From Nocardia carnea (GTDB lineage: Bacteria; Actinomycetota; Actinomycetes; Mycobacteriales; Mycobacteriaceae): a DNA stretch of 61,519 nt. Numbering within the stretch: position 1 is the stretch's first letter; each line of letters begins with the position of its first letter. A program made the position numbers and the translations under genes. The stretch is taken from the NCBI RefSeq assembly GCF_029868325.1, contig NZ_JARWNW010000174.1, positions 1 through 61,519 on the forward strand. Direction: 5' to 3'. The notes below the pieces were generated by a model. That model searched no databases. It saw only the letters and a program-made list of their open reading frames with translations, and had not been told where the DNA came from. Shown here piece after piece: positions 23,443-40,356 of the stretch.

Positions 23443-23949
23443 ATGACAGTGATCGTCGTGATGGGTGTGGCGGGTAGCGGAAAAACCACGGTCGGCACAC
23501 TCCTGGCCGAACGACTCGGCGTGGAATACGGTGAGGCGGATTCCTTCCACCCGGCCACCAATATCGCGAAGATGGACGCCGGGATTGCTTTGTCCGACGC
23601 GGATCGGGCACCGTGGCTGCGAGCCGTCGCCGAATGGGTGAGCGCGCACGATCGCAGCGGAGGTGTGGTGTCGTCCTCGGCACTGAAGCGGCGGTACCGC
23701 GATGTGCTGCGGGACGCCGGGCGCACCTGGTTTCTGCATCTGTCCGGGCCACGCGACCTCATCGCCGACCGGATATCGGCGCGTACCGGCCATTTCATGC
23801 CGGTATCGCTGCTGGACTCGCAATTCGCCGACTTGGAACCGCTGTCCGCCGACGAGACCGGAGTGGTGCTCGAGGTGGACGATACCCCGGAACGGATCGT
23901 CGATACCGCCGTGCGGGCTTTCACCGCGGCTCGTGGGAGTGCGCAGTGA
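23443..23949 (+). CDS. gntK: Gluconokinase
   Basis: Phosphorylates D-gluconate with ATP to 6-phosphogluconate, which enters the pentose-phosphate pathway. The 168 residues are the usual length for the small GntK family. Walker A is GVAGSGKTT (8-16); the substrate region EADSFHPATNIAKMDAG and lid region ISARTGHFMPVSLLDSQF are typical, the latter normally reading GHFMPxxLLxSQF. It overlaps larC by four bases (GTGA), so they are translationally coupled, an unexpected pairing of a sugar-acid kinase with a nickel-pincer cofactor gene. That pairing is the strongest neighbour clue that the LarA homologue makes gluconate. Confidence 0.95.
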   Translation: MTVIVVMGVAGSGKTTVGTLLAERLGVEYGEADSFHPATNIAKMDAGIALSDADRAPWLRAVAEWVSAHDRSGGVVSSSALKRRYRDVLRDAGRTWFLHLSGPRDLIADRISARTGHFMPVSLLDSQFADLEPLSADETGVVLEVDDTPERIVDTAVRAFTAARGSAQ

Positions 23950-25175
23950 AACTGGCGTGGATCGACGCATCGGCCGGCGTGGCCGGGGATATGCTGCTGG
24001 GCGCACTTGTCGATGCCGGAGTGCCGCCGGAGGTGCTTCAGGCGGCGATAGATGCTGTCGTGCCGGATGCGGTGCGAGTGGAGGGCTCGCAGGTCGTCCG
24101 CTGCGGGATGCGCGCGTGCAAGGTGGACCCGGTTGTCCGCGTGGACGACCCACCGCATCGGCACTGGTCCGATATCCGGGATCTGCTCGTCACGGCGGCG
24201 CTGCCGGAGCCGGTCCGCGCGGATACGTTGCGGGTCTTCGGCCACCTGGCCGAAGCGGAGGCCGGCATCCACGGCGTACCGGTCGATCGGGTGCACTTCC
24301 ACGAGGTCGGTGCCCTGGACTCGATCGCCGATATCGTCGGTGCCTGCGCGGCGCTGCACCATCTCGGGGTCGAACGGGTCACCGCCGGTCCGCTTTCGCT
24401 GGGGTCGGGCTCCGTGATGGCGGCGCACGGCGCCATCCCCGTGCCCGTGCCCGCGGTGCTGGCGATGTCCGCCGGCTGGCAGGTGCGCGCGGGCGGCGCC
24501 GGGGAACTGGCCACGCCTACCGGTGTGGCCTGGGTGACCGCGTTGGCGGATGCCTGCACGACCTTGCCGCAGATGCGGCTCGAACGGGTGGGCATCGGCG
24601 CGGGTACCAGGGATGTCCCCGATCGCCCGAATATCGTCAGGGTGCTGATCGGCGAGGCCGAGGACGCCGAATCAGCCGGCGGGAGTGTTGTCGAAGCCGC
24701 CGGTGAGAATGTCGTCCTGGAGGCCAATATCGACGATCTCGATCCGCGGGTCTGGCCGGCAGTCCTGCAGCGTCTGCTGGACTCCGGCGCCGACGACGCC
24801 TGGTTGACGCCCATTCTCATGAAGAAGGGCCGACCGGCCCATACGGTCCACGCCCTGGTCCCGGTCCGGCACGCGGAACAGGTATCGGCGGCACTCCTGG
24901 CCGAGACCAGCACGATCGGCCTACGGCGGATCGCGGTGGGGAAGGTCGCGCTCGCGCGGACCTGGCGACCGGTCGAGGTCGCGGGTGGCCCGGTACGGAT
25001 CAAGGTGGCGCTGGAACAGGACCGTATTCTCCAAGCCACACCCGAATTCGAGGATGTCGCGGAACTGGCGCGGTCGACCGGTCGACCCGTGCGCGCCGTC
25101 CTGGCCGAGGCGGTTGCGGCAGCGGTCGCGAACGGGCTGTCGACCGGAGAACTGCTACCGGACCTCTCGCGCTAG
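23946..25175 (+). CDS. larC: Nickel-pincer cofactor nickel insertase/cyclometallase LarC
   Basis: CTP-dependent enzyme that inserts nickel into the pyridinium bis-thiocarboxylate precursor to finish the nickel-pincer nucleotide (NPN) cofactor. The 409-residue chain opens with the family signature (V)KLAWIDASAGVAGDMLLGA, continues with RVHFHEVGALDSIADIVG and GELATPTGVAW, and has the C-terminal half with VLEANIDDLDPRVWP and TPILMKKGRPAHTVH. In Lactiplantibacillus the gene is split by a programmed frameshift (larC1/larC2); here it is one continuous frame. GTG start inside the gntK stop. It ends 16 bp before the convergent larB gene. Confidence 0.95.
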   Translation: MKLAWIDASAGVAGDMLLGALVDAGVPPEVLQAAIDAVVPDAVRVEGSQVVRCGMRACKVDPVVRVDDPPHRHWSDIRDLLVTAALPEPVRADTLRVFGHLAEAEAGIHGVPVDRVHFHEVGALDSIADIVGACAALHHLGVERVTAGPLSLGSGSVMAAHGAIPVPVPAVLAMSAGWQVRAGGAGELATPTGVAWVTALADACTTLPQMRLERVGIGAGTRDVPDRPNIVRVLIGEAEDAESAGGSVVEAAGENVVLEANIDDLDPRVWPAVLQRLLDSGADDAWLTPILMKKGRPAHTVHALVPVRHAEQVSAALLAETSTIGLRRIAVGKVALARTWRPVEVAGGPVRIKVALEQDRILQATPEFEDVAELARSTGRPVRAVLAEAVAAAVANGLSTGELLPDLSR

Positions 25176-25191
25176 CCGCACCGGCACGGAT

Positions 25192-25863
25192 TCAAGCCGG
25201 GGCGGCGATTTGTGCGGCGATATGCCCGGCGCCGTACCCGTTGTCGATATTGACCACCGACACACCGGGAGCGCAGGAGTTGAGCATGGTCAGCAGCGGC
25301 GCGACGCCACCGAATGCGGCGCCGTAACCCACCGAGGTGGGAACGGCGATCACGGGCGCGCTGATGAGCCCGGCGACGACGCTGGGAAGCGCGCCGTCCA
25401 TGCCCGCGACGACAACCACGACCCGCGCGGAACGCAGCAGGTCGAGACGGGCCAGGACACGATGCAGGCCGGCGACACCGATATCGGCCACAAGATCGCA
25501 GTGCCGGCCGAGATAGCGGGCGGTCATCGAGGCTTCCTGCGCTACCGGGAGGTCGGTGGTTCCGGCGGTGGCGACGACGACCGGTCCGCCGTCGGCCGCC
25601 GGCGGATCCGGCGGCCAGGCGAGCATCCGGGCGGCCGGTTCGTAGTGGGCCTCCGGCAACGCGCGCCGGACGGCCTCCGCCTGTTCGGGTTCGGCGCGGG
25701 TGAACAGGACCGTCCCTGCGTGCTCCCGTACCTCGGCGGCGATCCGTTCCAGCTGCTCGGCCGTCTTGCCCGGGCAGAAGATCGCTTCGGGATAGCCGCG
25801 CCGGGCGGCGCGATCGTGGTCCAGTTCGCTGAACACCGCGGGAGCGGACCAGGTGCCGGTCAT
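25192..25863 (-). CDS. larB: Nickel-pincer cofactor synthase LarB
   Basis: Carboxylates and hydrolyses nicotinic acid adenine dinucleotide to pyridinium-3,5-dicarboxylate mononucleotide, the first step of NPN synthesis. The 223 residues show the AIR-carboxylase-like core: VVVATAGTTDLPVAQEA, DIGVAGLHRVLA, VVVVVAGMDGALPSVVAGL, VIAVPTSVGYGAAFGG, and the C-terminal NIDNGYGAGHIAAQI. The amino-terminal part (DHDRAARRGYPEAIFCPGKT) is also typical. Its ATG overlaps the larE stop by four bases, so larE-larB is one coupled unit transcribed towards larC. Confidence 0.95.
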   Translation of the reverse strand: MTGTWSAPAVFSELDHDRAARRGYPEAIFCPGKTAEQLERIAAEVREHAGTVLFTRAEPEQAEAVRRALPEAHYEPAARMLAWPPDPPAADGGPVVVATAGTTDLPVAQEASMTARYLGRHCDLVADIGVAGLHRVLARLDLLRSARVVVVVAGMDGALPSVVAGLISAPVIAVPTSVGYGAAFGGVAPLLTMLNSCAPGVSVVNIDNGYGAGHIAAQIAAPA

Positions 25864-26714
25864 CGGACCGACACCAGCGGCAGCGTGAACGCACCGGACT
25901 GGATACCGGCCAGATCGACCGTGACGAACCGGAAGCCGTGCTCGCGCACCGCTGTCCGAATCCGTTCGCGCAATCGTGGTGACATCGCCCGCGCGATGTC
26001 ACCGGACGGCAACTCGATTCGTGCCACATCACCGTGGTGACGGATACGCAGATCGTGGAAACCCAGCTTGCGCAGCGCTTCCTCGGCGCCCTCCACCTGT
26101 GCCAGCTTCTCCGGGGTCACTTCCGTGAAATGAGGTATGCGTGAGGCCAGACAGGGCGCGGCGGGCTTGTCCGCGTTGGGCAGCGCCAATGCGCGGGCCA
26201 GGCGGCGGACCAGGGCTTTGTCTATTCCCGCCTCGGCCAGCGGCCGCAGGACCGAGAACTGGGCCGCCGCCCGGGCTCCGGGCCGGTCGGGCCGGCGGGT
26301 GTCGTCGGCGTTCTCACCGTAGGCGATCGCGGTCAAGCGCTCACGGCCGGCCAGATCGGCGGAAATTCGTTCGAACAGTTCGTACTTGCAGTGATAGCAG
26401 CGGTCGGGGCCGTTGGCCCGGTACTCGGTGCGGTCACCCTCGTGGGTCGGTAAGGCCACCGTCCGGACACCGAGTGCGGCGCTGACTTCCAGGGCGGCGG
26501 CGAGTTCGGAGCGGGGGAGACTCGGGGACACGCCGATGATGGCGCATACGCGGTCGGTTCCCAAGGCCCGGGCGGTGAGTGCGAGCAGGACCGAGGAATC
26601 CACCCCGCCCGAGTAGGCCACCCCCAGCGCTTCCTGTCCGTGCACGAGCGCGGCAACCCGTTCGGCCGCGAGCGCGAGATCACCCGTCAGGGGCGGGTTG
26701 CCGGTGCCGGTCAT
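25860..26714 (-). CDS. larE: ATP-dependent sacrificial sulfur transferase LarE
   Basis: Adenylates the dicarboxylate intermediate and installs two sulfurs to give the bis-thiocarboxylate of the NPN cofactor. The 284-residue chain has a PP-loop (YSGGVDSSVLLAL, about 34-46), the ADDTRRPDRPGARAA segment and PCLASRIP. Cysteines 106 and 109 (RCYHCK) and 188 (PCLASR) match the three-cysteine type, which in some bacteria binds an iron-sulfur cluster for catalytic sulfur delivery, as opposed to the single sacrificial cysteine of Lactiplantibacillus. Start at 26714 has CAGGAG upstream; the longer frame is rejected because it reads through the operator. A three-half-site operator lies 50 bp upstream. 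Confidence 0.95.
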   Translation of the reverse strand: MTGTGNPPLTGDLALAAERVAALVHGQEALGVAYSGGVDSSVLLALTARALGTDRVCAIIGVSPSLPRSELAAALEVSAALGVRTVALPTHEGDRTEYRANGPDRCYHCKYELFERISADLAGRERLTAIAYGENADDTRRPDRPGARAAAQFSVLRPLAEAGIDKALVRRLARALALPNADKPAAPCLASRIPHFTEVTPEKLAQVEGAEEALRKLGFHDLRIRHHGDVARIELPSGDIARAMSPRLRERIRTAVREHGFRFVTVDLAGIQSGAFTLPLVSVR

Positions 26715-26763
26715 GCCTGTACTCCTGTCGTCTTCCTCATTCAGCCGGGTGGCTCGCCTGCGG

Positions 26764-26787
26764 TGCAAGCGGTTGCCGCGACTTGTT
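26764..26787 (-). promoter_or_regulatory. Three-half-site operator of larE-larB
   Basis: TGCAA-GCGG-TTGCC (26764-26777) with TTGTT at 26783, offset 10 bp from TTGCC, distal to larE. Confidence 0.65.
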
Positions 26788-26832
26788 CGCTGCATCGCGA
26801 TGTTCGGATCTGTCCGATCAGCGGCCGGGAAC

Positions 26833-28209
26833 TCATCGGGCCCCGGTGACGCCGAATCGGATCACCAGGCCGCCGAGCAGCACCAGTGCACCACCGGCCA
26901 GATAGAGCAGGGTGTAGTTCGGGCCCGACCCGACGGCCAGCAGGACCGGGGCGAGCAGTGGCGCGGTGGACCGCGAAACCGTAGTCGCGAGTCCGGCGAT
27001 GGCCATGAACCGGCCCGCCTCCCGGAGGTCCGGCAGGATATCGAGGGTGATGGCCTGATCGACGGCGGCGAAGGCGCCCAGCCCGAAACCGCAGAGACAG
27101 GCCGCCAGCAGGAAAATCCGGAGATCGTGCGCGAATGCATAGGTGGCCGCACCTCCGGCATAGACAACGGCCGCCGTTACCACGAAAATGCGGCGGCGGC
27201 CGAGCCGGTCGGAGAGGTATCCGGCGCCGACCGATCCGGCAACCGCCGCGACCACCCCGGCCACGCTGATCCATGCGACGGCGTGTGCCACCTGGGCCAC
27301 TGTCAGGCCGAGCCGGTGGGCGAGGAAAAAGGTCTGGAACGTGGTGTTGAGCGCCAATCCGCTGTGGAAGCAGAACTTTCCCAGCCACTCCCAGGAGAAG
27401 TCGGGATAGCGGCGGGGGTTGTACCGATATTTGCGGGCGATCATGCGCACCGACAACGGTTCGTCGAAAACCGCCGACCGGGTATCGGTCTCGGCGGCGA
27501 ACAGTATCAGCGGTACCAGTAGCGCCGCTCCCAGCAGACCGGGTACGACGGTGAGCAGAACGCCGTGGTGCGCCAGCAACCCGGCCACCACCACGCCCAG
27601 TACGGGTGCGCCCTGCTGGGCGAATCCGAGGAAACCGGCGACGGTGCCGCGCTGATCGGCCGGCAGTTTATCGGCCTGTAGGGCGGTGATCGAACTCATC
27701 GCCGCGCTCCAGCCCAGCACGGTCAGCACCCATCCCAGCGCCAGGACACCGATATTCGGTGCCACGCCCACGACCACCAGCGCCGACATTCCGACAACCA
27801 CACCGGTGACCAGTACCGGTCGCCGGCGTCCGAAGCGGGTGCGTACCCGGTCGCTGATCACACCGACCACCGGACCCGCAAGCAGGGATACGGCACCGCC
27901 GAGGCTGGTCAGGTAGCCGAGGTATTCGGTACGCCCGGGCTCCAGCATGTCGACCCGTACCGCCAGCGAGTAGGCGAGAACGGTGATGTAGGCCATGAAG
28001 GCTCCGCAACTGCCGAGCATGAGCATGACGACATACGCGGCTCCGACCCGCTTCTCGCCGGGCACGGCGGCGGTACGCCGTGCGGGCTCAGTCGCTCGGC
28101 GCACGGCCGCTGTCTCCACCGGTGCCGATGCGGATTCCCCGGCGGCGAGCGTGCGGCCGATGCATCCTCGGGTCTCCTCTCCCCGCAGCAGGATGCGGGC
28201 ACCGACCAT
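26833..28209 (-). CDS. MFS transporter, probable glycoside or sugar-acid carrier
   Basis: A 458-residue integral membrane protein with about twelve hydrophobic segments. MFS loop motifs are clear: DRVRTRFGRRRPVLV after helix 2 and DRLGRRRIFVV in the second half, typical of the sugar (GPH/SLC45-like) branch. The first 55 residues are a charged, probably cytoplasmic extension, so a later start is possible. It lies about 120 bp downstream of larE-larB's promoter region in the same orientation but is separate: its own operator at 28233-28256 is only about 25 bp before the first codon. It probably imports glucuronides or free uronate alongside the ABC system. Confidence 0.85.
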   Translation of the reverse strand: MVGARILLRGEETRGCIGRTLAAGESASAPVETAAVRRATEPARRTAAVPGEKRVGAAYVVMLMLGSCGAFMAYITVLAYSLAVRVDMLEPGRTEYLGYLTSLGGAVSLLAGPVVGVISDRVRTRFGRRRPVLVTGVVVGMSALVVVGVAPNIGVLALGWVLTVLGWSAAMSSITALQADKLPADQRGTVAGFLGFAQQGAPVLGVVVAGLLAHHGVLLTVVPGLLGAALLVPLILFAAETDTRSAVFDEPLSVRMIARKYRYNPRRYPDFSWEWLGKFCFHSGLALNTTFQTFFLAHRLGLTVAQVAHAVAWISVAGVVAAVAGSVGAGYLSDRLGRRRIFVVTAAVVYAGGAATYAFAHDLRIFLLAACLCGFGLGAFAAVDQAITLDILPDLREAGRFMAIAGLATTVSRSTAPLLAPVLLAVGSGPNYTLLYLAGGALVLLGGLVIRFGVTGAR

Positions 28210-28232
28210 TCAGCCGACCGGTCACCGGAGCC

Positions 28233-28256
28233 GGCAACCTGTTGCCGCTACTTGCC
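28233..28256 (-). promoter_or_regulatory. Three-half-site operator of MFS gene
   Basis: GGCAA-CCTG-TTGCC (28233-28246) plus TTGCC at 28252, offset 10 bp and distal to the minus-strand gene. Confidence 0.7.
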
Positions 28257-28263
28257 CGGGATT

Positions 28264-28281
28264 GTGGCAAACGGTTGCCAC
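28264..28281 (+). promoter_or_regulatory. Perfect operator palindrome of regulator 2
   Basis: GTGGCAA-ACGG-TTGCCAC is an 18-bp site with perfect 7-bp arms, 33 bp before the ATG of regulator 2. It has no third half-site. It sits 33 bp centre to centre from the MFS operator, about three helical turns, so cooperative binding across the divergent promoters is possible. Confidence 0.75.
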
Positions 28282-28313
28282 AGCGGGCGCCGGTGGCTAT
28301 TCTCGCGGCCAGG

Positions 28314-29399
28314 ATGAACGACATCGCACGCCCACCCACCATCTACGACGTCGCTGCGGCGGCGGGCGTGGCACCGTCCACGGTGTCCCGGGCGTTCTCC
28401 CGGCCCGGCCGCGTGAGTGCGCCGACCGCCACGCGCATCCTCACGGTCGCGGCCGAGTTGGGATATCGGGCGAATCCGCTCGCCCGGGCGCTGCAGAACG
28501 GCAAGACCTCCACGATCGCACTGGTGGTTTCCGATGTGACCAACCCGGTGTTCTTCGCCATCATTCGCGGTGTCGAAGCAGCGGCCGCGGGGGCCGGGTA
28601 CGCCATGCTGCTGGCCGATACCCAGGAATCGGAGACGTTGGAGCGGACGCTGCTCGACCGGCTGTTGCACGGTGTCGACGGCGTGGTCCTGGCCAGTTCC
28701 CGGCTCTCCGACCGGACGATTCGCACGGTGGCGACGCAACGGCCGGTGGTGGTGCTGAACCGTATCGTGTCCGGAACCCGCTGTGTCGTGCCCGATACCG
28801 AATCCGGGGTCGGCGCAGCGTTACGGCATCTGGTCGAATTCGGCCACCGTTCGGTGACCTACATGGCGGGCCCGGCTGCCTCCTGGGCGGACGGTATGCG
28901 CTGGCGTTCGGTGGTGGATACGGCCGCCGAACTAGGGCTGAAGGCCAGCCGCCTCGGCCCCTACGTGCCCACCATGGCGGCCGGTGTGGCGGCGGCCGAG
29001 GACATCCGCCGCCAGGCGCCGACCGCGGTGCTCGCCTACAACGACCTCCTCGCGATCGGCCTGATCCGCGGTCTCGGACAGGCCGGGGTGCGGGTGCCCG
29101 AGCAGATGAGTGTGATCGGGTTCGACAACGTCTTCGGCTCCGATTTCTGTACGCCGGCGCTGACGACCGTGGCGGCACCGCTGCGGGCCATGGGCACCGC
29201 CGCGTTCGGGGAATTGCACCGGGCGATCCGCGGTGAGGCGACGAACTCGCATCCGGTCGTACCGCTGGCCGCTCAGCTCGTCGTGCGCGGCTCGGCGGGG
29301 CCGCGCAGACGGAAGAGCACCTCGCCGGCATCGGGGACGACCAGGGTATCTGGATCCGCTCGCCAGGCATCGATATCGATGCCTGCCGGGTCCGAATAG
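28314..29399 (+). CDS. LacI-family transcriptional regulator 2
   Basis: A 361-residue LacI/GalR regulator: HTH TIYDVAAAAGVAPSTVSRAF, hinge NPLARALQNGKTS, sensor with SDVTNPVFFAIIRG and GFDNVFGSDFCTP. A clear paralogue of regulator 1 at 7322. ATG at 28314 follows AGG closely and lies near the operator, so the leader is short. The C terminus runs about 40 residues past the usual end (VVRGSAGPR), overlapping the 3' end of the convergent larA-like gene by 127 bp. An autoregulatory palindrome is upstream. Together with regulator 1 it is the best candidate to control the regulon described in the findings. Confidence 0.93.
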   Translation: MNDIARPPTIYDVAAAAGVAPSTVSRAFSRPGRVSAPTATRILTVAAELGYRANPLARALQNGKTSTIALVVSDVTNPVFFAIIRGVEAAAAGAGYAMLLADTQESETLERTLLDRLLHGVDGVVLASSRLSDRTIRTVATQRPVVVLNRIVSGTRCVVPDTESGVGAALRHLVEFGHRSVTYMAGPAASWADGMRWRSVVDTAAELGLKASRLGPYVPTMAAGVAAAEDIRRQAPTAVLAYNDLLAIGLIRGLGQAGVRVPEQMSVIGFDNVFGSDFCTPALTTVAAPLRAMGTAAFGELHRAIRGEATNSHPVVPLAAQLVVRGSAGPRRRKSTSPASGTTRVSGSARQASISMPAGSE

Positions 29400-30562
29400 T
29401 CCAGCCCGGCGGCGCGTACTCGCTGTTCCGGAATGCCGGTCGCGAGCGTGACCGTGACCCTGCAACGTTCCCCGTCGATATCGTCGAACGTGCCGGCACC
29501 ACGCAGATGGGTGGAGTGCGCGAGCACTCCCCAGTGCAGGTGCCGGAAGCGGTCCCACTGCCGGACGAAATAGTCGCGGGTGTGGTAGCCGATTTCCTCG
29601 ATTTCCGGGTGCATTTCGGAAATCGTCGAGATGTGCGGGGCGTAGACGACGACCTGGCCGTCGTCGGCCGTGACGGGTTCGACCTTGTAGAACCCTTTGG
29701 CCGCGGTCCACATATCGTCGTACTTGGCCGGGATCAGCGACAGAACTCGCTGCACGGGAGCGTCCAGATACCTGACGTGGACCTGTGCGGATACGGCGGC
29801 GGCTGCGGCCCACGCCGATACGGGATCGCCGAACGCGGCGCTGTGCAACGCGTTGCTGCCCGACCGCACCACCAGGCACAGGGCGTGTCTCTCCCCGGGA
29901 ACGAGGGACGCGGCCTCGTGTATGAGGGCGCGCACCGGTGTGATCCCGGTGGTGCCGATGATGTCGCGGCTGGTGATCAGCGCACCGAGCCAATGCGAGA
30001 CGTCGATCACCTCGGGACCGGAAAGGCCGGGGAAGAGATACTTGTTTCCGCCGGAGAAGCCTACGACCTCATGCGGGAACACCGGGCCCACGATGATTGT
30101 CACGTCGTGTTCGACCACCACGCGATTGACTCGTACATCGACACCGGTCCGCAGAAGCCCGCCGGAGAGTTCGGCGATCCGTTCGCCGGGGATATGGCCT
30201 GCCGTGAAGAATGTTGCCGGGTCCCACCATTCGTGGTTCCGGACGGACAGACCGGGATAGCGTTCGGCCAGGGCACCGGGCGGGTAGCCCAGCCAATTCG
30301 CGAGCCGATCCTCGCTCATGGCCGCGTGGGTGCCCAGCGCGACGAGGACCGTCATCCGCCGCACCCGGCCGTACAGTTCTGCGTGCAGAACCGATATCAG
30401 CAGCGGTAGCGGACAGCTGCGGGTGGCGTCGGGAACGACCAGGCATACGCTGCGCCCGTCGAGGGCGAGGTTCGCCAGTTGCCCGGCCACGAAGCCGCGC
30501 ACCTGATCCGCGCTCAGCTCCTCGTCCGGTCCGCCGATGGTTGCGGCACAGTGTTCGGGCAC
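29273..30562 (-). CDS. LarA-family nickel-pincer racemase/epimerase, proposed D-mannonate/D-gluconate 2-epimerase
   Basis: A 429-residue member of the lactate racemase (LarA) superfamily, which racemises or epimerises 2-hydroxyacids by hydride transfer on a covalently held nickel-pincer cofactor. Key residues align with L. plantarum LarA at steady offsets: DATR (45-48, Lp D72/R75), His79 in GTHA (Lp H108), His164 in FPHEVVGFSGG (Lp H174), Lys174 in GGNKYLFPG (cofactor-binding Lp K184) and His190 (nickel ligand H200). Lp Gln295 appears as Thr286 in TAAK while Lys289 keeps Lp K298, suggesting a substrate other than lactate. Neighbours uxaC, uxuB and gntK point to D-mannonate to D-gluconate; this is inference. 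The 3' end overlaps regulator 2. Confidence 0.88.
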   Translation of the reverse strand: MPEHCAATIGGPDEELSADQVRGFVAGQLANLALDGRSVCLVVPDATRSCPLPLLISVLHAELYGRVRRMTVLVALGTHAAMSEDRLANWLGYPPGALAERYPGLSVRNHEWWDPATFFTAGHIPGERIAELSGGLLRTGVDVRVNRVVVEHDVTIIVGPVFPHEVVGFSGGNKYLFPGLSGPEVIDVSHWLGALITSRDIIGTTGITPVRALIHEAASLVPGERHALCLVVRSGSNALHSAAFGDPVSAWAAAAAVSAQVHVRYLDAPVQRVLSLIPAKYDDMWTAAKGFYKVEPVTADDGQVVVYAPHISTISEMHPEIEEIGYHTRDYFVRQWDRFRHLHWGVLAHSTHLRGAGTFDDIDGERCRVTVTLATGIPEQRVRAAGLDYSDPAGIDIDAWRADPDTLVVPDAGEVLFRLRGPAEPRTTS

Positions 30563-30627: not shown

Positions 30628-30651
30628 GACAACTGGAGGCAACCGATTGCC
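30628..30651 (+). promoter_or_regulatory. Three-half-site operator of uxaC
   Basis: GACAA at 30628, then GGCAA-CCGA-TTGCC (30638-30651), offset 10 bp, third half-site upstream of uxaC. Another GGCAACCGG half-operator at 30615 faces the divergent larA-like gene. CATAAC at 30673 may be a -10 element, making the uxaC message nearly leaderless. Confidence 0.72.
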
Positions 30652-30683
30652 GATGAATCGGGCGACCGCCCAGCATAACGGGC

Positions 30684-32108
30684 ATGCTTTCTGCTTCCGC
30701 GGCGCACGCGGCGCCCCATCCCGACCGGCTGTTTCCGGCCGACCCGGGGGTGCGTGCCGTGGCACAGCGCCTCCACCGCGCAATACGCGACGAGCGGATC
30801 ATCTCACCGCACGGCCATGTCGACGCGCGCCTGCTGGCCGACGACGAACCCTTTCCGGATCCGGCCGGCCTGCTCATCACGCCGGATCACTACGTCACGC
30901 GATTGCTGCACGCGAACAGGATTCCGCTGGACCGGCTCGGTGTCGGCCGGGGCGAATTGTCCGAGGCGCAGGCTCGGGCGGTGTGGCGCAGCGTATGCGA
31001 GAACTGGGACGTCTTCCGGGGCACCCCGGTGCGCTACTGGTTCGATGTGGAGCTGGCGGAAATATTCGGTATCACCGAACGGCCGTCCCGGCACAACGCC
31101 GATATGTTGTACGACCGGATCGCGGAGCGGCTGCGGCAGCCCGAATACCGCCCGCGCCGGCTGTACGAGCGATTCGGGATCGATGTGCTGGCCACCACGG
31201 ACGACCCCTGTGACGAGCTGAGCGCACACGCCCGGCTCGCCGCCGACCCGGGATGGAACGGCCGGGTCGTTCCCACCTTCCGCCCGGACCGCTATCTGGA
31301 ACCAGCAACGCCGGGCTGGCGGCAGGCCGTCGACCGTCTCGCCACGGTTTCGGACGCCGACACCGGTGACTACGACGGATATCTCGCGGCACTGGAGAAA
31401 CGCCGCCGGTACTTCGTCGCACACGGAGCGACCGCGACCGACCATAGCCACGAGGACGTGCAGACCCATCCGCTCGGGGCGGCCGAGGCGCGTCGTATCT
31501 ATCGCGCTGCCCGCGCCGGTGCGGTGACCGCGGCCGAGGCCGTGGCGTTTCGCCGCCATATGGTTTTCGAGATGGCCCGCATGTCCACCGACGACGGGCT
31601 GGTGATGATGCTGCACCCCGCCGTCCGGCGCAACCATCACGGTCCCACCGCGGCCGCCTTCGGTTCCGACACCGGCCACGACCTACCGCTGCGCGTGGAA
31701 TTCGTCGACGGGCTGCGACCACTACTGGAGAATTTCGGCACCCATCCGAATCTCAACCTGGTGCTGTTCACCCTCGACGAAACCACCTATTCGCGGGAGA
31801 TCGCACCCCTGGCCGGTTTCTATCCGACAGTGTTCGCCGGCGCACCGTGGTGGTTTCTCGACGCGCCCGACGCCATCGGGCGCTTCCACCGCGCGGTGAC
31901 CGAAACCGCGGGCCATCGCAAACTCGCCGGATTCGTCGACGATACGCGGGCATTCTGCTCGATCCCGGCACGCCACGATATGGCCCGGCGCCTCGATGCG
32001 GCGGCTTTGGCGCACCTTGTCGCCGAACATCGCCTCGGTGAGGATGAGGCCGTGGTCATCGCCGGTGAGCTGGTGCGGGAGCAGCCGAGACGGGTGTTCA
32101 AACTCTAG
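30684..32108 (+). CDS. uxaC: Uronate isomerase
   Basis: Isomerises D-glucuronate to D-fructuronate (and D-galacturonate to tagaturonate). The 474 residues match the UxaC family of the amidohydrolase superfamily: ISPHGHVDARLLADD near the N terminus holds the metal-binding histidines; ENWDVFRGTPVRYWFDVEL, DVLATTDDPCDEL, MLHPAVRRNHH and the C-terminal GFVDDTRAFCSIPARHDMARR are all characteristic. Divergent from the larA-like gene across a 120-bp region with the operator. Second enzyme of the proposed glucuronate route. No cleaner start than the ATG at 30684 is visible. Confidence 0.96.
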   Translation: MLSASAAHAAPHPDRLFPADPGVRAVAQRLHRAIRDERIISPHGHVDARLLADDEPFPDPAGLLITPDHYVTRLLHANRIPLDRLGVGRGELSEAQARAVWRSVCENWDVFRGTPVRYWFDVELAEIFGITERPSRHNADMLYDRIAERLRQPEYRPRRLYERFGIDVLATTDDPCDELSAHARLAADPGWNGRVVPTFRPDRYLEPATPGWRQAVDRLATVSDADTGDYDGYLAALEKRRRYFVAHGATATDHSHEDVQTHPLGAAEARRIYRAARAGAVTAAEAVAFRRHMVFEMARMSTDDGLVMMLHPAVRRNHHGPTAAAFGSDTGHDLPLRVEFVDGLRPLLENFGTHPNLNLVLFTLDETTYSREIAPLAGFYPTVFAGAPWWFLDAPDAIGRFHRAVTETAGHRKLAGFVDDTRAFCSIPARHDMARRLDAAALAHLVAEHRLGEDEAVVIAGELVREQPRRVFKL

Positions 32109-33141: not shown

Positions 33142-33816
33142 TCAGCCGATGCTGAAAGGCTGCCCGTAGAGGGTGACCTTGGAATGGTATTCGCCGATGA
33201 GTTCGAGGACGGTATACGAGCGCGCCTGCGCGTAGCCGGCGCACCCTTGTATCTGGATTTCGAAATCCCGGTACCCGAGTGAGTAGGTGCCCGGCTCGGT
33301 GATGGTCTTCTTGCCGACCGATACGAACCTCACCTCGCCCGGTCCCAGCTGCAGACCGGCGGAGGCGTTGACCCCGAAACCGTTGGCGCTGAGGTTGCCC
33401 GACATACCGGCCGATATTGCGGTATCGGAGATACTGACCTGGCAACCGACGATGTATCCGGTATTGACCGCAGAAGCGCCGTGGGTCCACGAATTGTCGG
33501 TACCCGGCCGGTTACTGGCCGCCGTACCGGGGCCTGCCTTTTCGACAATCCGTGTCGCGGTGACGTCCGCGGTGATGTTCGCCGACACCCAGACCACTCG
33601 GCCTACACCGTTGGCGGCCATGGACGATGAGACGAGAGCCTGTTCGCCGGTGCGGGTGATGGTTCCGCCATTGGTCGCCTCTGCTCCGTCCGGCAGGGGG
33701 ACGAAGACATCCGCGTTCGCGGAGCCGGTCGACAGCAGGCCCACGGCGGCCGCGACAGCGCAGCCCAGCCCGGCCAGGCGGGCCGCTCCGGCGGTCACCG
33801 GATCAGTTGAATTCAT
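33142..33816 (-). CDS. MspA-family outer-membrane porin 2
   Basis: A 224-residue MspA-type porin. Start at 33816 is chosen for GAGGG eight bases upstream; the frame remains open further but without a site. The signal peptide runs to SANA-D. TGYIVGCQVSISD, LQLGPGEVRF and IQGCAGYAQARSYTVLEL with VTLYGQPFSIG define the family. It is upstream of porin 1 and has a three-half-site operator about 235 bp before its start, which places mycomembrane passage under the same control as the catabolic genes. Channel preference for anionic sugars is not inferable from sequence. Confidence 0.93.
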   Translation of the reverse strand: MNSTDPVTAGAARLAGLGCAVAAAVGLLSTGSANADVFVPLPDGAEATNGGTITRTGEQALVSSSMAANGVGRVVWVSANITADVTATRIVEKAGPGTAASNRPGTDNSWTHGASAVNTGYIVGCQVSISDTAISAGMSGNLSANGFGVNASAGLQLGPGEVRFVSVGKKTITEPGTYSLGYRDFEIQIQGCAGYAQARSYTVLELIGEYHSKVTLYGQPFSIG

Positions 33817-34049
33817 CAGATCTACCCTCATCTCGATCGAAAAACGACGCGGATATCCGAAAGCGCTCTGCCGGCGATTACGGGTTCGTCGGGATTCGCG
33901 AGTGCGATCTATGTCGACGCTCCCGCGAAAGAGCTGCCGTGAAGGCGATCGCGCCGGTCGCCTTCTCTGGATTACGAGTGATCGGCCGTCGGGACGGGAG
34001 TGGTGTCGATCACAGCGTGTGGTCATGGTTGATTACCCAGGGAACCCCT

Positions 34050-34073
34050 CGCAACCGGTTGCCTCGAGTTGTC
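34050..34073 (-). promoter_or_regulatory. Three-half-site operator of porin genes
   Basis: CGCAA-CCGG-TTGCC (34050-34063) plus TTGTC at 34069, offset 10 bp and distal to the minus-strand porin gene. TAATCA about 14 bp on the gene side could be a -10 element. Confidence 0.7.
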
Positions 34074-34283: not shown

Positions 34284-34412
34284 GAGACATCGGTCGATGA
34301 CATCGCGGCCGAACTTGTTGCCGATATCGAGGCAGCGGGCATGGATGATGTGGGGCTGGTAGGCCATTCGCAGGCGGGCTGCATCCTATGGGCTATGGGC
34401 CGAGCACCGCAG
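34284..34412 (+). pseudogene. Alpha/beta-hydrolase remnant
   Basis: A short in-frame stretch reads SVDDIAAELVADIEAAGMDD followed by VGLVGHSQAGCIL, the usual approach to and nucleophile elbow (GHSQAG) of an alpha/beta hydrolase. The upstream beta-strands and everything after the elbow are missing, and the frame stops soon after. A degraded gene fragment beside the porin operon. Confidence 0.5.
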
Positions 34413-34477
34413 TGATCAGAGCGTTGCCCGGTGCGAGGCGTGCAGCGCCTCAGGACCGGAAGGTGGCGATATCCCGC

Positions 34478-34501
34478 GACAACTCGGGACAACCGGTTGC
34501 C
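34478..34501 (+). promoter_or_regulatory. Three-half-site operator of GH1-GH2-uxuB operon
   Basis: GACAA at 34478, then GACAA-CCGG-TTGCC (34488-34501), offset 10 bp, third half-site upstream. It is about 270 bp before the GH1 start, so the leader is long or the promoter is further downstream. Confidence 0.7.
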
Positions 34502-34769
34502 GTGGACCGTCGCCACCGAGAATATGGCGGCATGGTTCCCGACTCCCCGCCACGCTGTGCGTTGCCTCCCGGCCCGCATCTCGTCCGGAACCGCGATCTG
34601 CGCCGCGACGAGGCCGTGGCAGCGCCCGATGCGGAAGCAGCCACGCCGAACTACAGCGCCCTGTACCCGGCCGGCGGGGTCCTGACGATCCTGGGCGGCC
34701 CGATCATTGATACCCGGGTCCGAGGCAGCCGTTGAGCGGTACCGCCGGGCAGAGAGAAATGAGAAACCC

Positions 34770-35957
34770 ATGGTGACACAGCTCCGGGCCGGATTTCTGT
34801 GGGGCGCCTCCACCGCCGCCCATCAAGTGGAGGGCGACAACGTCAACAGCGACTGGTGGGTGCGTGAACAACAACGTCCGCCGGAGCAGCGCAGCGGCTC
34901 GGCGGTCGACAGTTATCACCGCTATCCCGAGGATATGCGCCTGCTCGCGGAGGCAGGTCTCGACGCCTACCGGTTCAGTATCGAATGGGCGCGGATCGAG
35001 CCCGCCGAGGGACAGTTCTCCCTCGCCCAGCTGGCGCACTACCGGCGGATGATCGACACCGCCCTGGAGACCGGACTCCGCCCGGTGGTCACCCTGCATC
35101 ATTTCACCTGCCCGCGCTGGTTCGCCGAGCACGGCGGCTGGCTGGGAGAGCGGGCGATACCGCAGTTCGAACGGTATGTCGAGCGTGTCACGGCCATCCT
35201 GGACGGTGTCGACTGGGTGTGCACGATCAACGAGCCGAATATGCTCGCCATGATGGAATCGCTGGCCGCCGCGTACCGGTCGGGGGAGTTCAGTGCCACT
35301 GTCGAGGAGGGGAGGCCGCCGGTACTGCCCGCCCCGGACCCGCAGGTCGGCGCCCGGCTGGCCGCAGCACACCACGCGGCGCGGGCAATCCTGAAGAGCC
35401 ACACCGGAGCCGCCGTCGGGTGGACCGTGGCCGCCGGGGCGCTGACCGCCACCCCCGGTAACGAGACGATACTGCGTGAGGTCCGGGAAGTCCGCGAGGA
35501 TTTCTACTGGCGGGCCGCCCGGGAGGACGACTTCGTCGGCGTGCAAGCGTATTCGAGTCAGCAGGTGGACGAGCGCGGGGTAGTCCCGACTCCGCCGAGT
35601 CCGGACAACACCCTGACCGGTGCGGCGTATCGGCCCGATGCCCTGGGCGCCGCGGTCCGCCATGCGTGGGACGTCACCGGCGGCGTGCCGATCCTGGTCA
35701 CCGAGAACGGTATCGCCACCGCCGACGACGAGCGACGGATCGCCTACACCGCCGACGCACTACGCCACTTGTTCGCCGCCATCGATGCCGGCGTCGATAT
35801 TCGCGGATACCTGCACTGGTCGGCACTCGACAACTACGAATGGGGCCATTGGGAACCGACCTTCGGGCTCATCGCCGTCGACCGCGAGACCTTCGAACGG
35901 GTGCCGAAACCGAGTCTGGCATGGCTGGGCAACGTGGCGAAGCAGGGGGGACTGTGA
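34770..35957 (+). CDS. GH1 family beta-glycosidase
   Basis: A 395-residue retaining beta-glycosidase, shorter than the usual 440-480 for GH1. Family landmarks: FLWGASTAAHQVEG near the N terminus, the acid/base Glu155 in TINEPN, the nucleophile Glu312 in VTENG, and the C-terminal ALDNYEWGHWEPTFGL. The ATG at 34770 is the first one compatible with the family start. No signal peptide. First gene of an operon with the GH2 enzyme and uxuB; each junction overlaps by four bases. It probably removes a glucosyl, galactosyl or similar residue from the imported glycoside before or after GusA; the sugar specificity is open. Confidence 0.93.
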   Translation: MVTQLRAGFLWGASTAAHQVEGDNVNSDWWVREQQRPPEQRSGSAVDSYHRYPEDMRLLAEAGLDAYRFSIEWARIEPAEGQFSLAQLAHYRRMIDTALETGLRPVVTLHHFTCPRWFAEHGGWLGERAIPQFERYVERVTAILDGVDWVCTINEPNMLAMMESLAAAYRSGEFSATVEEGRPPVLPAPDPQVGARLAAAHHAARAILKSHTGAAVGWTVAAGALTATPGNETILREVREVREDFYWRAAREDDFVGVQAYSSQQVDERGVVPTPPSPDNTLTGAAYRPDALGAAVRHAWDVTGGVPILVTENGIATADDERRIAYTADALRHLFAAIDAGVDIRGYLHWSALDNYEWGHWEPTFGLIAVDRETFERVPKPSLAWLGNVAKQGGL

Positions 35958-38900
35958 CCGGGCTCGACCTCCGGGCGATGGCGCCCGACGATACGGGATT
36001 CCATGCCGTCGGCCGCCTGCCCATGCACGCACTCCGGCGCACCCCGGACATCGATCTCGACGGCGAATGGGAATTCCAGCTGCTGGAATCGCTGGAGCAG
36101 GTACCCGGCGACGAATGGCGAACGGTGATCGTCCCCGAACTGTGGACGATGCGGGAGAACGCCGACCGGCCGCACTACACCAACGTGCCCATGCCGTTCG
36201 ACGAGTCCCCACCGCAAATACCGGCGCGGAACCCGACCGGCGTCTACCGGCGCAGTTTCGACTTACCCGATACCGGTGACCGGCGCGTGGTGCTGCATAT
36301 CGGTGCCGCCGAAGGGCTGCTCCGCGTGTTCGTGAACGACCGGCCCATCGGCACGAGCACCGATTCGCACCTTGCCGCCGAGTTCGACATCACCGATGCC
36401 TGTATGCCCGGCCCGAATACTGTGACACTGGCGGTGTCGAAGTGGTCGGCCGTGTCCTACCTCGAAGACCAAGACCACTGGTGGCAGTCGGGAATCAGCC
36501 GCTCGGTATTCGTGTATTCCGTGCCGCCGCAGCACCTTGCGGATCTCTCGGTGCGTGCCGACTACGACCCGGAGACCGGGTACGGTGCGCTCGGCGTCGA
36601 GATCGTCACCGCGGGACTCGATCATCTCGGCGACTCGGAATGGACCGTGGAGGTGCGCGCACTGGATCGAACGGTGGCGCTACCGGTCGCACCGCGCTGC
36701 GCGGCGCCGGCACTGCCCCTTCCGGATGACGACCGCAGCGTCCGGCCGCAGTCGCGTATCCCCGCCGATTTCATGGATCTGCTCTCGATCCGGGCCGCCG
36801 GCGCGCCGGTGCCCGAACGACTCGCCCCGTATGCCTCCCGCTTCGGTCGATCCCTCCTGCCCTCCCGTCTCGCGGGAACCGCCGGCCTGGAATGGCGCGA
36901 TCTGGAGGTGCAACCCTGGTCCGCGGAGGAGCCGCGACTTTACGACCTGACGGTGCGGCTCGTGCGGCCGGACGGGACGGTCGCCGACGAAACCCGCACC
37001 CGCATCGGGTTTCGGCGAGTGCATATCGAGGGCCGGGATCTGCTGGTCAACGGTCGCCGAATTCTCGTGCAAGGCGTGAACCGTCATGACACCCACCCCG
37101 TCACCGGACGGGTCCTCTCCCGCCGGGACATGCTGGCGGAACTCGCTGTGCTGAAGCGATGCAATGTCAATGCGATCCGCACCTCGCACTACCCGAACGA
37201 CCCGGAATTTCTCGATCTCTGCGACCAGATCGGCTTCTACCTCGTCGACGAGGCCGATATCGAAGGACACGCCTTCGCAGGCACCCTGTGCGACGATCCG
37301 CGCTACCTGCCCGAGTTCATGGAGCGCGTGACGCGGATGGTGCAGCGGGACCGCAATCATCCGTCGGTGATCATGTGGTCGCTCGGCAACGAAACCGGAT
37401 ACGGCACCAACCACGACACCGCCGCGACCTGGGTGCGCCGTACCGATCCCACCCGGCCGCTGCACTACGAGGGCGCGATAGCGCACGACTGGCACGGCGG
37501 CCACGCAGCCACCGATGTCGTGTGCCCGATGTATCCCGCGTTCGATGCGTTGCGCGCCTATGCGGCGGATCCGCGCGCCGATCGACCGCTGATCCTATGC
37601 GAATACGCCTATTCCCAGGGGAATTCGACCGGGGGTCTGGCCGAGTACTGGCGGTTGTTCGAGACCCTGCCCGGACTACAGGGCGGGTTCATCTGGGGAT
37701 TCAAAGACCTGGCCTTGGCCCCTGACGGGGACGGAAAGTACTACTATGGAGGAGATTTCGGCGACGAACCGAACAGTGGGCCCGCGCTGCTGTACGGCAT
37801 CGCCTTCGCCGACAACACACCGAAGCCCGCGCTGTACGAGGCCCGCGGGCTGTTCTCGCCGATCCGGATCTCCTCCGGCGCCGCAGCGGCCCGCGCCGGG
37901 AAGATCACGGTCCGCAATCGGCAGACATTCGCCGATCTCGGCCGCTACACATTCGAAATACACATCGACACCGCCGACGGTCCGGCAGCGGCCACAGCAC
38001 TACCCCTGGAGGTTCCGGCCGGCGGGACGGTCACTGTCGAGTTGCCGTCCGCGATCCGGGCGGCCCTCGCCGCCCGGCCGCTGGCGCTGACGGTTACCGT
38101 GCGGACCCGTGACCACGCACTCTGGGCACCGGCGGGAACCGTGGTCGCGATCGAGCAGGTCCGGTTCCCGGCTCCACGTATCACGCTGCCGGCGTTGGCG
38201 ACCGGAGCGGTTCACCTGGATGCCGACGGCGGTCTGCGGCACCCGCTGCTACGTGTGCCACCCCGGCTCTGCCTGTGGCGCGCTCTCACCGATGTCGACC
38301 GATCCGTGAAAATGGATCAGCGCTTCGTCCGAACCGGGTTCTTCCGGCTGACCGCGAAATCGATCGATATCTCGCATGGTGACGATGCAGTAAGGGTGTG
38401 CACCCGCTACTTGGGTGCGTTCGGCGACGAGATATGCCACACCCGGACCATGCGCGCGGTCGGGGCGGACGACTACGTGCTCACCGAGCATGTCCGGCTG
38501 CCGGACGATACCCGGGACGGGCTGCGGGTCGGCGTGGAATTCGCACTCGCCGAAGGTCTCACCGACGCGAAATGGGTGGGATCGGGCCCGTGGGAGAACT
38601 ATCCCGACCGCCGATCCGCCGCGCTCGCCGGGTGCTGGCACAGCAGTATCGACGATATGGCCGTGCCGTACCTGCGCCCGCAGGAGAACGGGGGACGCGG
38701 TGACGTCACCGAGTTGTCGCTGAGCGGCCCGGCCGGCACGGTGACCACGACTCACCAGCCACTGCAGGTCAGCGTCGGGCGGTATCGGGTCGCGGAGCTC
38801 GAGGCGGCGGCGCATTGGTGGGAGCTGCCGCCCTCGGAGGCCACCATTGTCCACCTGGATATCGCGCATCGCGGACTCGGCGAAATCCTGGGACCCGATA

Positions 38901-38971
38901 CCCTGCCCGAATTCCGGCTCGCCGCCACCGAATACGAATGGCAATGGCGCATGCGGCTGGCAGTTCGATGA
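35954..38971 (+). CDS. GH2 family beta-galactosidase-like enzyme
   Basis: A 1005-residue LacZ-type GH2 enzyme, full length for the family. GTG start within the GH1 stop; the longer upstream frame is a shadow of GH1. Sugar-binding, immunoglobulin-like and TIM-barrel domains are present, with RTSHYPNDPEFLDLCDQIG, acid/base Glu480 in SLGNETGYG, nucleophile Glu550 in LCEYAY, and a C-terminal beta-galactosidase small-chain domain (GSGPWENYPDRRSAA). It lacks the NKKG carboxylate clamp seen in GusA, so a neutral sugar is more likely than a glucuronide. Cytoplasmic, and coupled to uxuB downstream. Confidence 0.93.
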   Translation: MTGLDLRAMAPDDTGFHAVGRLPMHALRRTPDIDLDGEWEFQLLESLEQVPGDEWRTVIVPELWTMRENADRPHYTNVPMPFDESPPQIPARNPTGVYRRSFDLPDTGDRRVVLHIGAAEGLLRVFVNDRPIGTSTDSHLAAEFDITDACMPGPNTVTLAVSKWSAVSYLEDQDHWWQSGISRSVFVYSVPPQHLADLSVRADYDPETGYGALGVEIVTAGLDHLGDSEWTVEVRALDRTVALPVAPRCAAPALPLPDDDRSVRPQSRIPADFMDLLSIRAAGAPVPERLAPYASRFGRSLLPSRLAGTAGLEWRDLEVQPWSAEEPRLYDLTVRLVRPDGTVADETRTRIGFRRVHIEGRDLLVNGRRILVQGVNRHDTHPVTGRVLSRRDMLAELAVLKRCNVNAIRTSHYPNDPEFLDLCDQIGFYLVDEADIEGHAFAGTLCDDPRYLPEFMERVTRMVQRDRNHPSVIMWSLGNETGYGTNHDTAATWVRRTDPTRPLHYEGAIAHDWHGGHAATDVVCPMYPAFDALRAYAADPRADRPLILCEYAYSQGNSTGGLAEYWRLFETLPGLQGGFIWGFKDLALAPDGDGKYYYGGDFGDEPNSGPALLYGIAFADNTPKPALYEARGLFSPIRISSGAAAARAGKITVRNRQTFADLGRYTFEIHIDTADGPAAATALPLEVPAGGTVTVELPSAIRAALAARPLALTVTVRTRDHALWAPAGTVVAIEQVRFPAPRITLPALATGAVHLDADGGLRHPLLRVPPRLCLWRALTDVDRSVKMDQRFVRTGFFRLTAKSIDISHGDDAVRVCTRYLGAFGDEICHTRTMRAVGADDYVLTEHVRLPDDTRDGLRVGVEFALAEGLTDAKWVGSGPWENYPDRRSAALAGCWHSSIDDMAVPYLRPQENGGRGDVTELSLSGPAGTVTTTHQPLQVSVGRYRVAELEAAAHWWELPPSEATIVHLDIAHRGLGEILGPDTLPEFRLAATEYEWQWRMRLAVR

Positions 38972-40356
38972 CGGGGAATGGCGCGGCGCCCCGGCTTTCC
39001 CGAGACTCCGGCACCGCTGCGGCGGTACGCATGGTTCATCTGGGACTCGGCAGCTTCTTCCGTGCTCACCAGGCCTGGTACACCGCATCCGCTCCGGACG
39101 GGCACCACTGGGGAATTGCGGCATTCACCGGCCGCGGCCCCGCCATGGCTGCGGCCCTGAGCGCTCAGGACGGGCTCTACACGCTGGTCACCCGTACTGC
39201 GGGCGGTGATGAATTCGAGGTTGTGCGCACGATCAGCCGGGCGCATGCCGCGACCGACGCGCAGGCTTGGCTCCGGTATTTCGCCGCACCGGAAGTGGCG
39301 GTGGTGACGCTCACCGTGACCGAGGCGGGCTACACCCGTCGAGGTGACGGCAGCTTGGATCTCGGCAATCCGGCGGTGGCCGCGGATCTCACCGCCGTGC
39401 GCGCTGATCCAGGTGCGGTCGGAACCACTGCGGCGGCCCGCCTGGTGGCGGGCTTCGCCGCCCGGCGAGCGGCGGGGGCGGGGCCGCTGGCGGTCGTACC
39501 CTGCGACAACCTCCCGGGCAATGGTGCGGTACTCGCGCACATCATCGGCGAATTCGCCGCTCTGGCGGCACCGGGCCTGCGTGGCTGGATCGACGACAAC
39601 GTCTCCTTCGTCACCTCCGCGGTGGACCGCATCACGCCCGCGACCACGCCCGAGGATATCGCGGCGGTCGGGCAGGCTCTCGGCTATCGCGACGATGTGC
39701 CGGTGGTCACCGAGCCGTTCCGGGAATGGGTACTCGCCGGTGAGTTCCCGGCCGGCCGTCCGCGCTGGGAAGTCGCGGGTGCTGTTTTCACCGCCGACCT
39801 CACACCGTATGAACAGCGGAAACTGTGGCTGCTCAACGGCGCGCACTCACTGCTGGCCTATACCGCGCCGCTGCGCGGCCATCTGACGGTGGGGCAGGCT
39901 GTGGCCGATCCCGTGTGCCGCGAGTGGGTGACACAGTGGTGGGCCGAGGCTGTTCCGCACCTGCGGCTGCCCGCTCAGGAGTTGACGGAATACACCCGGG
40001 CATTGCTCACCAGATTCGCCAACCCGCGGATGCAGCACCGGCTTTCGCAGATCGCCCAGGACGGTTCGCAAAAGTTGCCGGTGCGGATACTGCCGGTGTT
40101 GCGGCGGGAACGTGCGGCCGGGCGGATGCCGGCCGGGGCTGTCCGGGCGTTGGCCGGGTGGGTATGTCATCTGACCGGTAACGGTGTCCCGGTGTCCGAT
40201 GATCGCGTTCGGCCGGTGTCCGGTGCCGGTGCCGCTCTCGGGCTGCTGGACGGCACGCTCACCGATGATCGGGAATTGTGCCGCGCCGTCGACGCGGAAG
40301 CCCGGCAACTGCGCGCCGCTCTCGATCACCGGGCGGGGAGCCTTCCACCTTCCTGA
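38968..40356 (+). CDS. uxuB: Mannitol dehydrogenase-family fructuronate reductase
   Basis: NAD-dependent reduction of D-fructuronate to D-mannonate. The 462 residues belong to the polyol-specific long-chain dehydrogenase family: VHLGLGSFFRAHQAWYT at the N terminus, VPCDNLPGNG, VDRITPATTP, VTEPFREWVLAGEFP, and the catalytic KLWLLNGAHSLLAY with its lysine. Among family members UxuB/UxaB fit best because uxaC and gusA are in the same island; mannitol or arabinitol dehydrogenase cannot be wholly excluded. ATG overlaps the GH2 stop by four bases. In the usual pathway uxuA would follow; it is absent here, which motivates the proposed LarA step. Confidence 0.88.
   Translation: MTGNGAAPRLSRDSGTAAAVRMVHLGLGSFFRAHQAWYTASAPDGHHWGIAAFTGRGPAMAAALSAQDGLYTLVTRTAGGDEFEVVRTISRAHAATDAQAWLRYFAAPEVAVVTLTVTEAGYTRRGDGSLDLGNPAVAADLTAVRADPGAVGTTAAARLVAGFAARRAAGAGPLAVVPCDNLPGNGAVLAHIIGEFAALAAPGLRGWIDDNVSFVTSAVDRITPATTPEDIAAVGQALGYRDDVPVVTEPFREWVLAGEFPAGRPRWEVAGAVFTADLTPYEQRKLWLLNGAHSLLAYTAPLRGHLTVGQAVADPVCREWVTQWWAEAVPHLRLPAQELTEYTRALLTRFANPRMQHRLSQIAQDGSQKLPVRILPVLRRERAAGRMPAGAVRALAGWVCHLTGNGVPVSDDRVRPVSGAGAALGLLDGTLTDDRELCRAVDAEARQLRAALDHRAGSLPPS

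Follow-up and report, generated by a model that had tools for sequence, protein, structure and literature searches.

PMC6978723 and PMC3750489 credit Rodionova 2012 with the proposal, for Thermotoga, of a route from glucuronate to gluconate by way of an epimerase, and epimerisation between mannonate and gluconate has been demonstrated in vitro for GntE1 and GntE2 (PMC7583248) and for LarAH15 (PMC11770544); the route as a proposal and the reaction as such are thus not new. The natural substrate of the actinobacterial GntE was still in doubt in 2020 (PMC7583248), and the locus described here, if the pathway proposed for it is true, would bear on it. This locus is a gene island of Nocardia carnea (assembly GCF_029868325.1) on contig NZ_JARWNW010000174.1 (C174; 61,519 nucleotides, analysed whole and called the window below), part of a genome of 7.04 Mb with a completeness rating of 100%. 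The closest named record among the matches listed is a Nocardia carnea strain with the same gene order, whose LarA homologue is 98% identical; that of Nocardia flavorosea is 91% identical. An earlier note on this DNA, made from the letters alone, had proposed that the LarA homologue at 29273–30562 (minus strand, 429 aa; gntE) turns D-mannonate into D-gluconate, so that glucuronides would enter the pentose-phosphate pathway as 6-phosphogluconate.

In the proposed pathway, GusA, perhaps with other hydrolases, would release glucuronate; UxaC would isomerise glucuronate to fructuronate, and UxuB would reduce fructuronate to D-mannonate; GntE, with cofactor supplied by LarB, LarC, and LarE, would invert C2 of D-mannonate to give D-gluconate; GntK would convert D-gluconate to 6-phosphogluconate; and the 6-phosphogluconate dehydrogenase of the genome (gnd, found over cut-off) would carry the carbon into the pentose-phosphate pathway. 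The genes of the island are likely controlled by a LacI-family regulator through a common operator. Each catalytic step in N. carnea, and the direction in which GntE works, are deduced from sequence. The assignment of the LarA homologue made in the earlier note has gained support: its predicted fold and active-site residues, the absence of UxuA and ManD, the exchange that relatives show in their downstream module, and the single operator-marked stretch together point to conversion of D-mannonate to D-gluconate and on to 6-phosphogluconate. Very probably, then, the island routes glucuronate to 6-phosphogluconate via GntE, bypassing mannonate dehydratase, 2-keto-3-deoxygluconate (KDG), and 2-keto-3-deoxy-6-phosphogluconate (KDPG). 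What was observed directly comprises the genes, the gene absences, their co-occurrence, the clustering of a palindrome, and the predicted fold.

The gntE product has a Lar_N domain, over cut-off, and a predicted LarA fold, and its top solved relative, both by sequence and by predicted fold, is GntE2 (PDB 4NAR). Residues D45, R48, H79, H164, K174, H190, and K289 align with the catalytic and nickel-pincer nucleotide (NPN) residues of GntE2, as listed in PMC7583248, and are invariant in 12 of 12 aligned sequences. The signature of GntE groups 19 and 20, worded in PMC7583248 as a loop E-V/S and a W in α11, is matched by the loop H164-E165-V166 after the catalytic His and by W285 in α11; in the A/V signature region of α14, N348 of GntE2 aligns with G345, which is followed by V-L-A. 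Many records of homologues carry the source name lactate racemase (domain-containing) protein, and this name favors an ordinary lactate (or malate) racemase that happens to lie beside unrelated sugar genes; yet the product scores 192 bits against GntE2 and only 27–35 bits against solved lactate and malate racemases, its loop reads E-V where that of LarA reads F-F (PMC7583248), and gntE has a palindrome in common with uxaC and gntK. A plain lactate or malate racemase was ruled out by family models, bit scores to solved structures, and fold comparison, and this explanation is left with next to no probability. The 29273–30562 product is likely a D-mannonate/D-gluconate 2-epimerase of the GntE type.

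The statement of the earlier note that no uxuA, kdgK, or kdgA is in view was borne out by tblastn of the window with uxuA, three kdgK-like, two eda/dgoA, and one manD references, none of which found a match; the search for KDG kinase covered the window, where none was found. For mannonate dehydratase the absence extends to the rest of the genome: UxuA had no matches in the whole genome, and ManD had no match over cut-off (best weak match, E 1.3e-33). The presence of such a dehydratase was part of what the earlier note had named as refuting its proposal, and the genome yielded none. For kdgA it holds in the window only, as the genome has one KDPG-type aldolase, which adjoins the gene for a galactonate dehydratase (DgoD) and a GntR-type regulator in a galactonate locus. 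The genome has no Edd; both of its ILVD/EDD proteins are dihydroxy-acid dehydratases (IlvD). Five genome matches belong to the enolase superfamily, and the best two of the five, which were classified, are DgoD and, second, a muconate cycloisomerase. This galactonate locus raises the alternative that a dehydratase elsewhere, such as DgoD, carries the mannonate flux and that GntE runs in reverse, for gluconate use. Genome G348 (L166:8067–11775), which has no UxaC match, speaks for this alternative: its GntE-like gene, 65% identical, is flanked by a KDG-kinase-like gene on one side and ManD on the other, and an aldolase lies nearby; this arrangement suggests that some GntE members run from gluconate to mannonate and, in G348, perhaps on to KDG. 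DgoD of N. carnea, however, scores 575 bits as galactonate dehydratase (cut-off 311) and 207 bits as ManD (cut-off 550), gluconate could be served by a second gntK beside zwf, and the palindrome common to uxaC and the GH1-GH2-uxuB operon was not found, in its stricter form, within the 14 kb that surround the galactonate locus; very little probability is given to a mannonate flux through such a dehydratase.

Across the order, too, GntE and mannonate dehydratase largely exclude each other where UxaC is present. One set of 397 Mycobacteriales genomes was searched for the GntE protein, UxaC, UxuA, and ManD; a GntE-like match, at 283 bits or more, was present in 20 of the 397, and UxaC in 17 of these 20 and in 96 of the remaining 377. 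Of the 113 genomes that have UxaC, 96 lack GntE and 17 have it, and UxuA or ManD was over cut-off in 88 of the former and 3 of the latter; counted by genus, a dehydratase was present in 19/20 and 2/10, respectively. UxuA is rare in Mycobacteriales (14/397 genomes), so its absence says little; UxuA absence alone was therefore set aside as evidence, and ManD is the informative enzyme. The gntE gene of genome G259 (L168, C1:5134120–5135262) is broken over several frames, either because the copy is decaying or because of an error in sequencing, and that genome has no UxaC match.

The neighborhoods of gntE and uxaC indicate what stands in place of the dehydratase. The best 80 named gntE loci, which lean to close relatives and include some short stretches, were combined with 19 loci from the order survey, and removal of 7 duplicates from these 99 left 92 loci; the count excludes L130, which is the second copy in G371 and has a broken frame, and neighbor genes were called at bit thresholds of the analyst's own choice. 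Of the 92 loci, 52 contain uxaC, 57 contain uxuB, 44 contain one or more of larB, larC, and larE, 24 contain a gluconokinase (GntK type in 7, FGGY type in 17), and 12 contain gnd; UxuA was found in none, and the one enolase-superfamily dehydratase is a galactonate dehydratase. GntK as a constant partner of gntE was rejected, its type being present in only 7/92 loci. Where uxaC is linked (52 loci), it lies within 1 kb of gntE in 37, on the opposite strand in 36 of these 37, and the stretch holds a gluconokinase in 21/52 and gnd in 9/52. As controls, 20 of the 96 uxaC loci from genomes without GntE were taken so as to cover different genera (18 in all): an enolase-superfamily protein was present in eight, all of them ManD over cut-off, and the other 12 had no ManD in the stretch; gluconokinase was present in one, and gnd and larB/larC/larE in none. 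The two modules can be compared within one genus, inferred to be Modestobacter, where G039 has the row uxaC-uxuB-aldolase-KDG-kinase-like-ManD and where, in G092, gntE diverges from uxaC, uxuB, and an FGGY kinase in a row, the kinase having gluconokinase as its top model at a score under the model cut-off. UxuB of the window is 61% identical to UxuB of the ManD (D-mannonate) operon and 57% identical to that of the GntE operon. The shared upstream module thus points to D-mannonate as the substrate of GntE, and the exchanged downstream genes indicate that its product is gluconate. This operon module swap, read by comparison of relatives, is the strongest part of the argument.

In a tree of GntE sequences, from which L168 (broken), L114 (cut), L044 (a near-copy of the window), and L072 (short) were left out, the uxaC-linked label is scattered, with 22 changes, and linkage to uxaC is therefore not the property of one clade. 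Eight Kribbella loci (L073, L079, L081, L085, L091, L096, L100, and L101) form one clade, with no match to uxaC, gluconokinase, or gnd within the stretches examined, and the substrate of this clade may differ.

A palindrome that resembles an operator ties the genes of the island together. With at most one mismatch, GGCAANCNNTTGCC is found 12 times in the window, as 24 strand matches against 1.15 expected, and every copy lies in the stretch from 6.3 to 34.5 kb. One copy, GGCAACCGATTGCC (30638–30651), lies between gntE and uxaC; others lie upstream of gntK-larC (23313–23326), larE-larB (26764–26777), the MspA porins (34050–34063), GH1-GH2-uxuB (34488–34501), and glcD-gusA (20499–20512). Two more lie between the transporter gene and lacI (28233–28279), and the marked stretch opens on its left side with another two (6313–6413; copies at 6313 and 6400), followed by copies at 8427 and 15196. 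The exact palindrome occurs at seven places genome-wide, four of them in the window. Genome-wide there is no enrichment (131 strand matches with at most one mismatch vs. 211 for the reversed pattern), so only the clustering in the window is informative. Single matches to the loose form lie at C204:38478 (~5 kb from gnd) and C237:1010 (~0.4 kb before zwf-gntK2); the stricter form, in which the central CG is counted, is absent from L013, L169, and L012, the 13–16 kb around gnd, zwf-gntK2, and the galactonate locus. In relatives, the palindrome (at most two mismatches) is present in 24 of 36 divergent gntE/uxaC gaps (0.6 expected from shuffles) and within 400 bp of 12/20 GntE-negative uxaC genes; it would thus be a motif of uronate regulation in general and not of the GntE version. 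From this shared, clustered palindrome it follows that the genes for cofactor synthesis, for the epimerase and the kinase, and for the uronate enzymes are probably co-induced, and we infer that the LacI-family protein of 28314–29399 binds it.

Several observations tell against a glucuronate route through GntE. The Fisher tests on the dehydratase contrast ignore ancestry above the genus, and 3/17 genomes with both UxaC and GntE keep a dehydratase; the G348 locus described above joins GntE to ManD; uxaC is missing from the stretch in 40/92 gntE loci, and gluconokinase from 31/52 uxaC-linked loci; the FGGY kinases of other loci match gluconokinase best, yet below the curated cut-off; and with the second gntK beside zwf, gluconokinase is not unique to the island. 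The UxuB assignment rests on a top match of 244 bits to fructuronate reductase, under the model cut-off of 603. Model confidence is lower near the active-site loop (residues 161–210, block means 56–72), and the NCBIfam hexonate-epimerase model NF052594 (group 18, putative) gives 155 bits with a cut-off of 500. Membership of the gntE product in NF052594 was ruled out by this score, far under the cut-off; relatives from Corynebacterium, Brachybacterium, and Kribbella (one each) score 162–175 bits. Finally, the marked stretch contains a 2-hydroxy-3-oxopropionate-reductase-like gene (8626–9504). Genes of this type are found in aldarate pathways.

Some of these points favor epimerisation of another C6 acid, for example D-glucarate/D-mannarate, or D-altronate from galacturonate, notably the reductase-like gene and the loci without uxaC. 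The KM of GntE1 for D-mannonate is very high (120, presumably in mM), and its authors doubted that mannonate is the true substrate and proposed another, such as an aldarate, D-glucarate/D-mannarate being suggested for group 19 (PMC7583248); UxaC-family enzymes also accept galacturonate (PMC6978723, PMC3750489). Against this stand the 61% identity of the window UxuB to UxuB of a D-mannonate operon and the presence of gluconokinase or gnd beside 23/52 uxaC-linked gntE loci vs. 1/20 controls; an aldarate-enzyme scan covered part of the open reading frames (ORFs) of the window. Another C6 acid as the substrate is distinctly unlikely. The order of the last two steps could also be inverted, with a D-mannonate kinase acting first and a 6-phosphomannonate 2-epimerase then giving 6-phosphogluconate, as is reported for Lactobacillus suebicus (PMC6978723), and a gntK does lie within the island. 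The epimerase gene of L. suebicus is, however, not identified in PMC6978723, the proven GntE enzymes take unphosphorylated mannonate (PMC7583248), E. coli GntK is reported to be inactive on mannonate (PMC6978723), and the FGGY kinases of other loci find their best match, below cut-off, in gluconokinase; epimerisation after phosphorylation is highly unlikely. D-mannonate, epimerised before phosphorylation, is thus retained as the likely substrate of the N. carnea GntE.

The genes named by the earlier note as one island are real ORFs of the named families, with the exception that gusA lies outside 23443–40356. On the plus strand are gntK (23443–23949), a GntK/IdnK-type gluconokinase (TIGR01313, 169 bits, cut-off 114), and larC (23946–25175; GTG start; matches to TIGR00299 and NF052512 over cut-off), for the protein that inserts nickel into the pincer cofactor; the coupling of the two that the note had described is present as a 4-base overlap, GTGA, of stop and start at 23946–23949. 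The minus strand carries larB (25192–25863; pincer cofactor biosynthesis; NF033503, 289 bits, over the curated cut-off) and larE (25860–26714; sacrificial sulfur transferase; TIGR00268, over cut-off; start picked by eye), whose stop overlaps the larB start by four bases, ATGA, and a major facilitator superfamily (MFS) transporter predicted to take up uronate or glucuronide (26833–28209; the true start may be inside this ORF). The lacI gene (28314–29399, plus strand) and gntE are convergent, with a tail-to-tail overlap of 127 nt. Divergent from gntE is uxaC (30684–32108, plus strand; glucuronate isomerase; PRK02925, 523 bits, cut-off 387). There follow, on the minus strand, an MspA-type porin (32409–33077) and a second MspA-like porin, by eye a paralogue of the first (33142–34026; the true start is probably inside this ORF), and, on the plus strand, a glycoside hydrolase family 1 (GH1) glycosidase (34707–35957), a GH2 enzyme (35954–38971), and uxuB (38968–40356), the predicted fructuronate reductase giving D-mannonate; the GH2 stop and uxuB start overlap by four bases, ATGA. 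The GH2 enzyme is a LacZ-type β-galactosidase and was ruled out as the gusA product; a true gusA, for the β-glucuronidase (PRK10150, 884 bits, cut-off 544), lies at 17047–18852 on the minus strand, within the same operator-marked stretch. Upstream of gusA, on the same strand, lies a GlcD-like FAD-linked 2-hydroxyacid oxidase (19056–20435), followed by an 860-aa protein weakly like α-galacturonidase (20546–23125, minus strand; NCBIfam, 50 bits, cut-off 1300; PDB 6HZF, 20 bits), which has no Pfam match and is possibly a new type of uronidase; its gene is divergent from gntK-larC, with a palindrome in between. The marked stretch also includes a 2-hydroxyacid-dehydrogenase-like gene (15264–16283) and a second LacI-family regulator (7322–8356) with palindrome copies close by.

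For Actinobacteria more broadly, it is probable that the glucuronate pathway is complete and that a nickel-pincer epimerase stands in for all three enzymes of its lower branch (mannonate dehydratase, KDG kinase, and KDPG aldolase) as a cassette swap at the uxaC-uxuB operon, in one LacI regulon that includes the cofactor genes. Such a swap would change the products of the route from pyruvate and glyceraldehyde 3-phosphate to ribulose 5-phosphate, CO2, and reducing power. If true, it would explain the role of the actinobacterial GntE, assign a definite function in catabolism to the nickel-pincer cofactor across many Actinobacteria, and make glucuronide use in these organisms dependent on nickel supply. 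In such genomes the dehydratase marker is missing and the epimerase is often named lactate racemase, so the glucuronate pathway would be missed. As far as searches of open-licence literature show, three points are new: that GntE and mannonate dehydratase exclude one another in genomes with UxaC, the one-operon cassette swap, and the likely LacI regulon with nickel-cofactor genes.

Among known systems, GntE2 (LarAH20) of Thermotoga maritima is of the same superfamily as the N. carnea protein, with the same active-site residues, and is its nearest solved structure; the pectin locus gnd-uxaE-uxaD-gntE-gntK of T. maritima likewise has gntK and gnd as partners of gntE (PMC3750489). T. maritima, however, has an extra kdgA-kdgK-uxuB-uxuA operon with a site of the same regulator (PMC3750489), whereas UxuA and ManD were not found in N. 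carnea, and its regulator is of the GntR type, whereas that of N. carnea is likely of the LacI type. GntE1 (LarAH19) of Corynebacterium glutamicum is alike in being actinobacterial, in its uronic-acid gene context, and in its gluconate 2-epimerase (G2E) activity (PMC7583248); a C. doosanense homologue is 51–52% identical to the gntE product, and the Corynebacterium rows form a separate branch of the tree, the GntE1 sequence itself being outside the comparison. The galacturonate pathway of L. suebicus (phosphoketolase route) also joins the isomerase pathway to 6-phosphogluconate but places the kinase first and then a 6-phosphomannonate epimerase for which PMC6978723 gives no gene and no nickel enzyme. 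With the Ashwell (isomerase) pathway (UxaC, UxuB, UxuA/ManD, KdgK, and KdgA), the N. carnea island shares the first two steps and the UxaC and UxuB families that carry them out; it differs in that no mannonate dehydratase is detected and in the predicted replacement of the later steps by GntE, GntK, and 6-phosphogluconate dehydrogenase.

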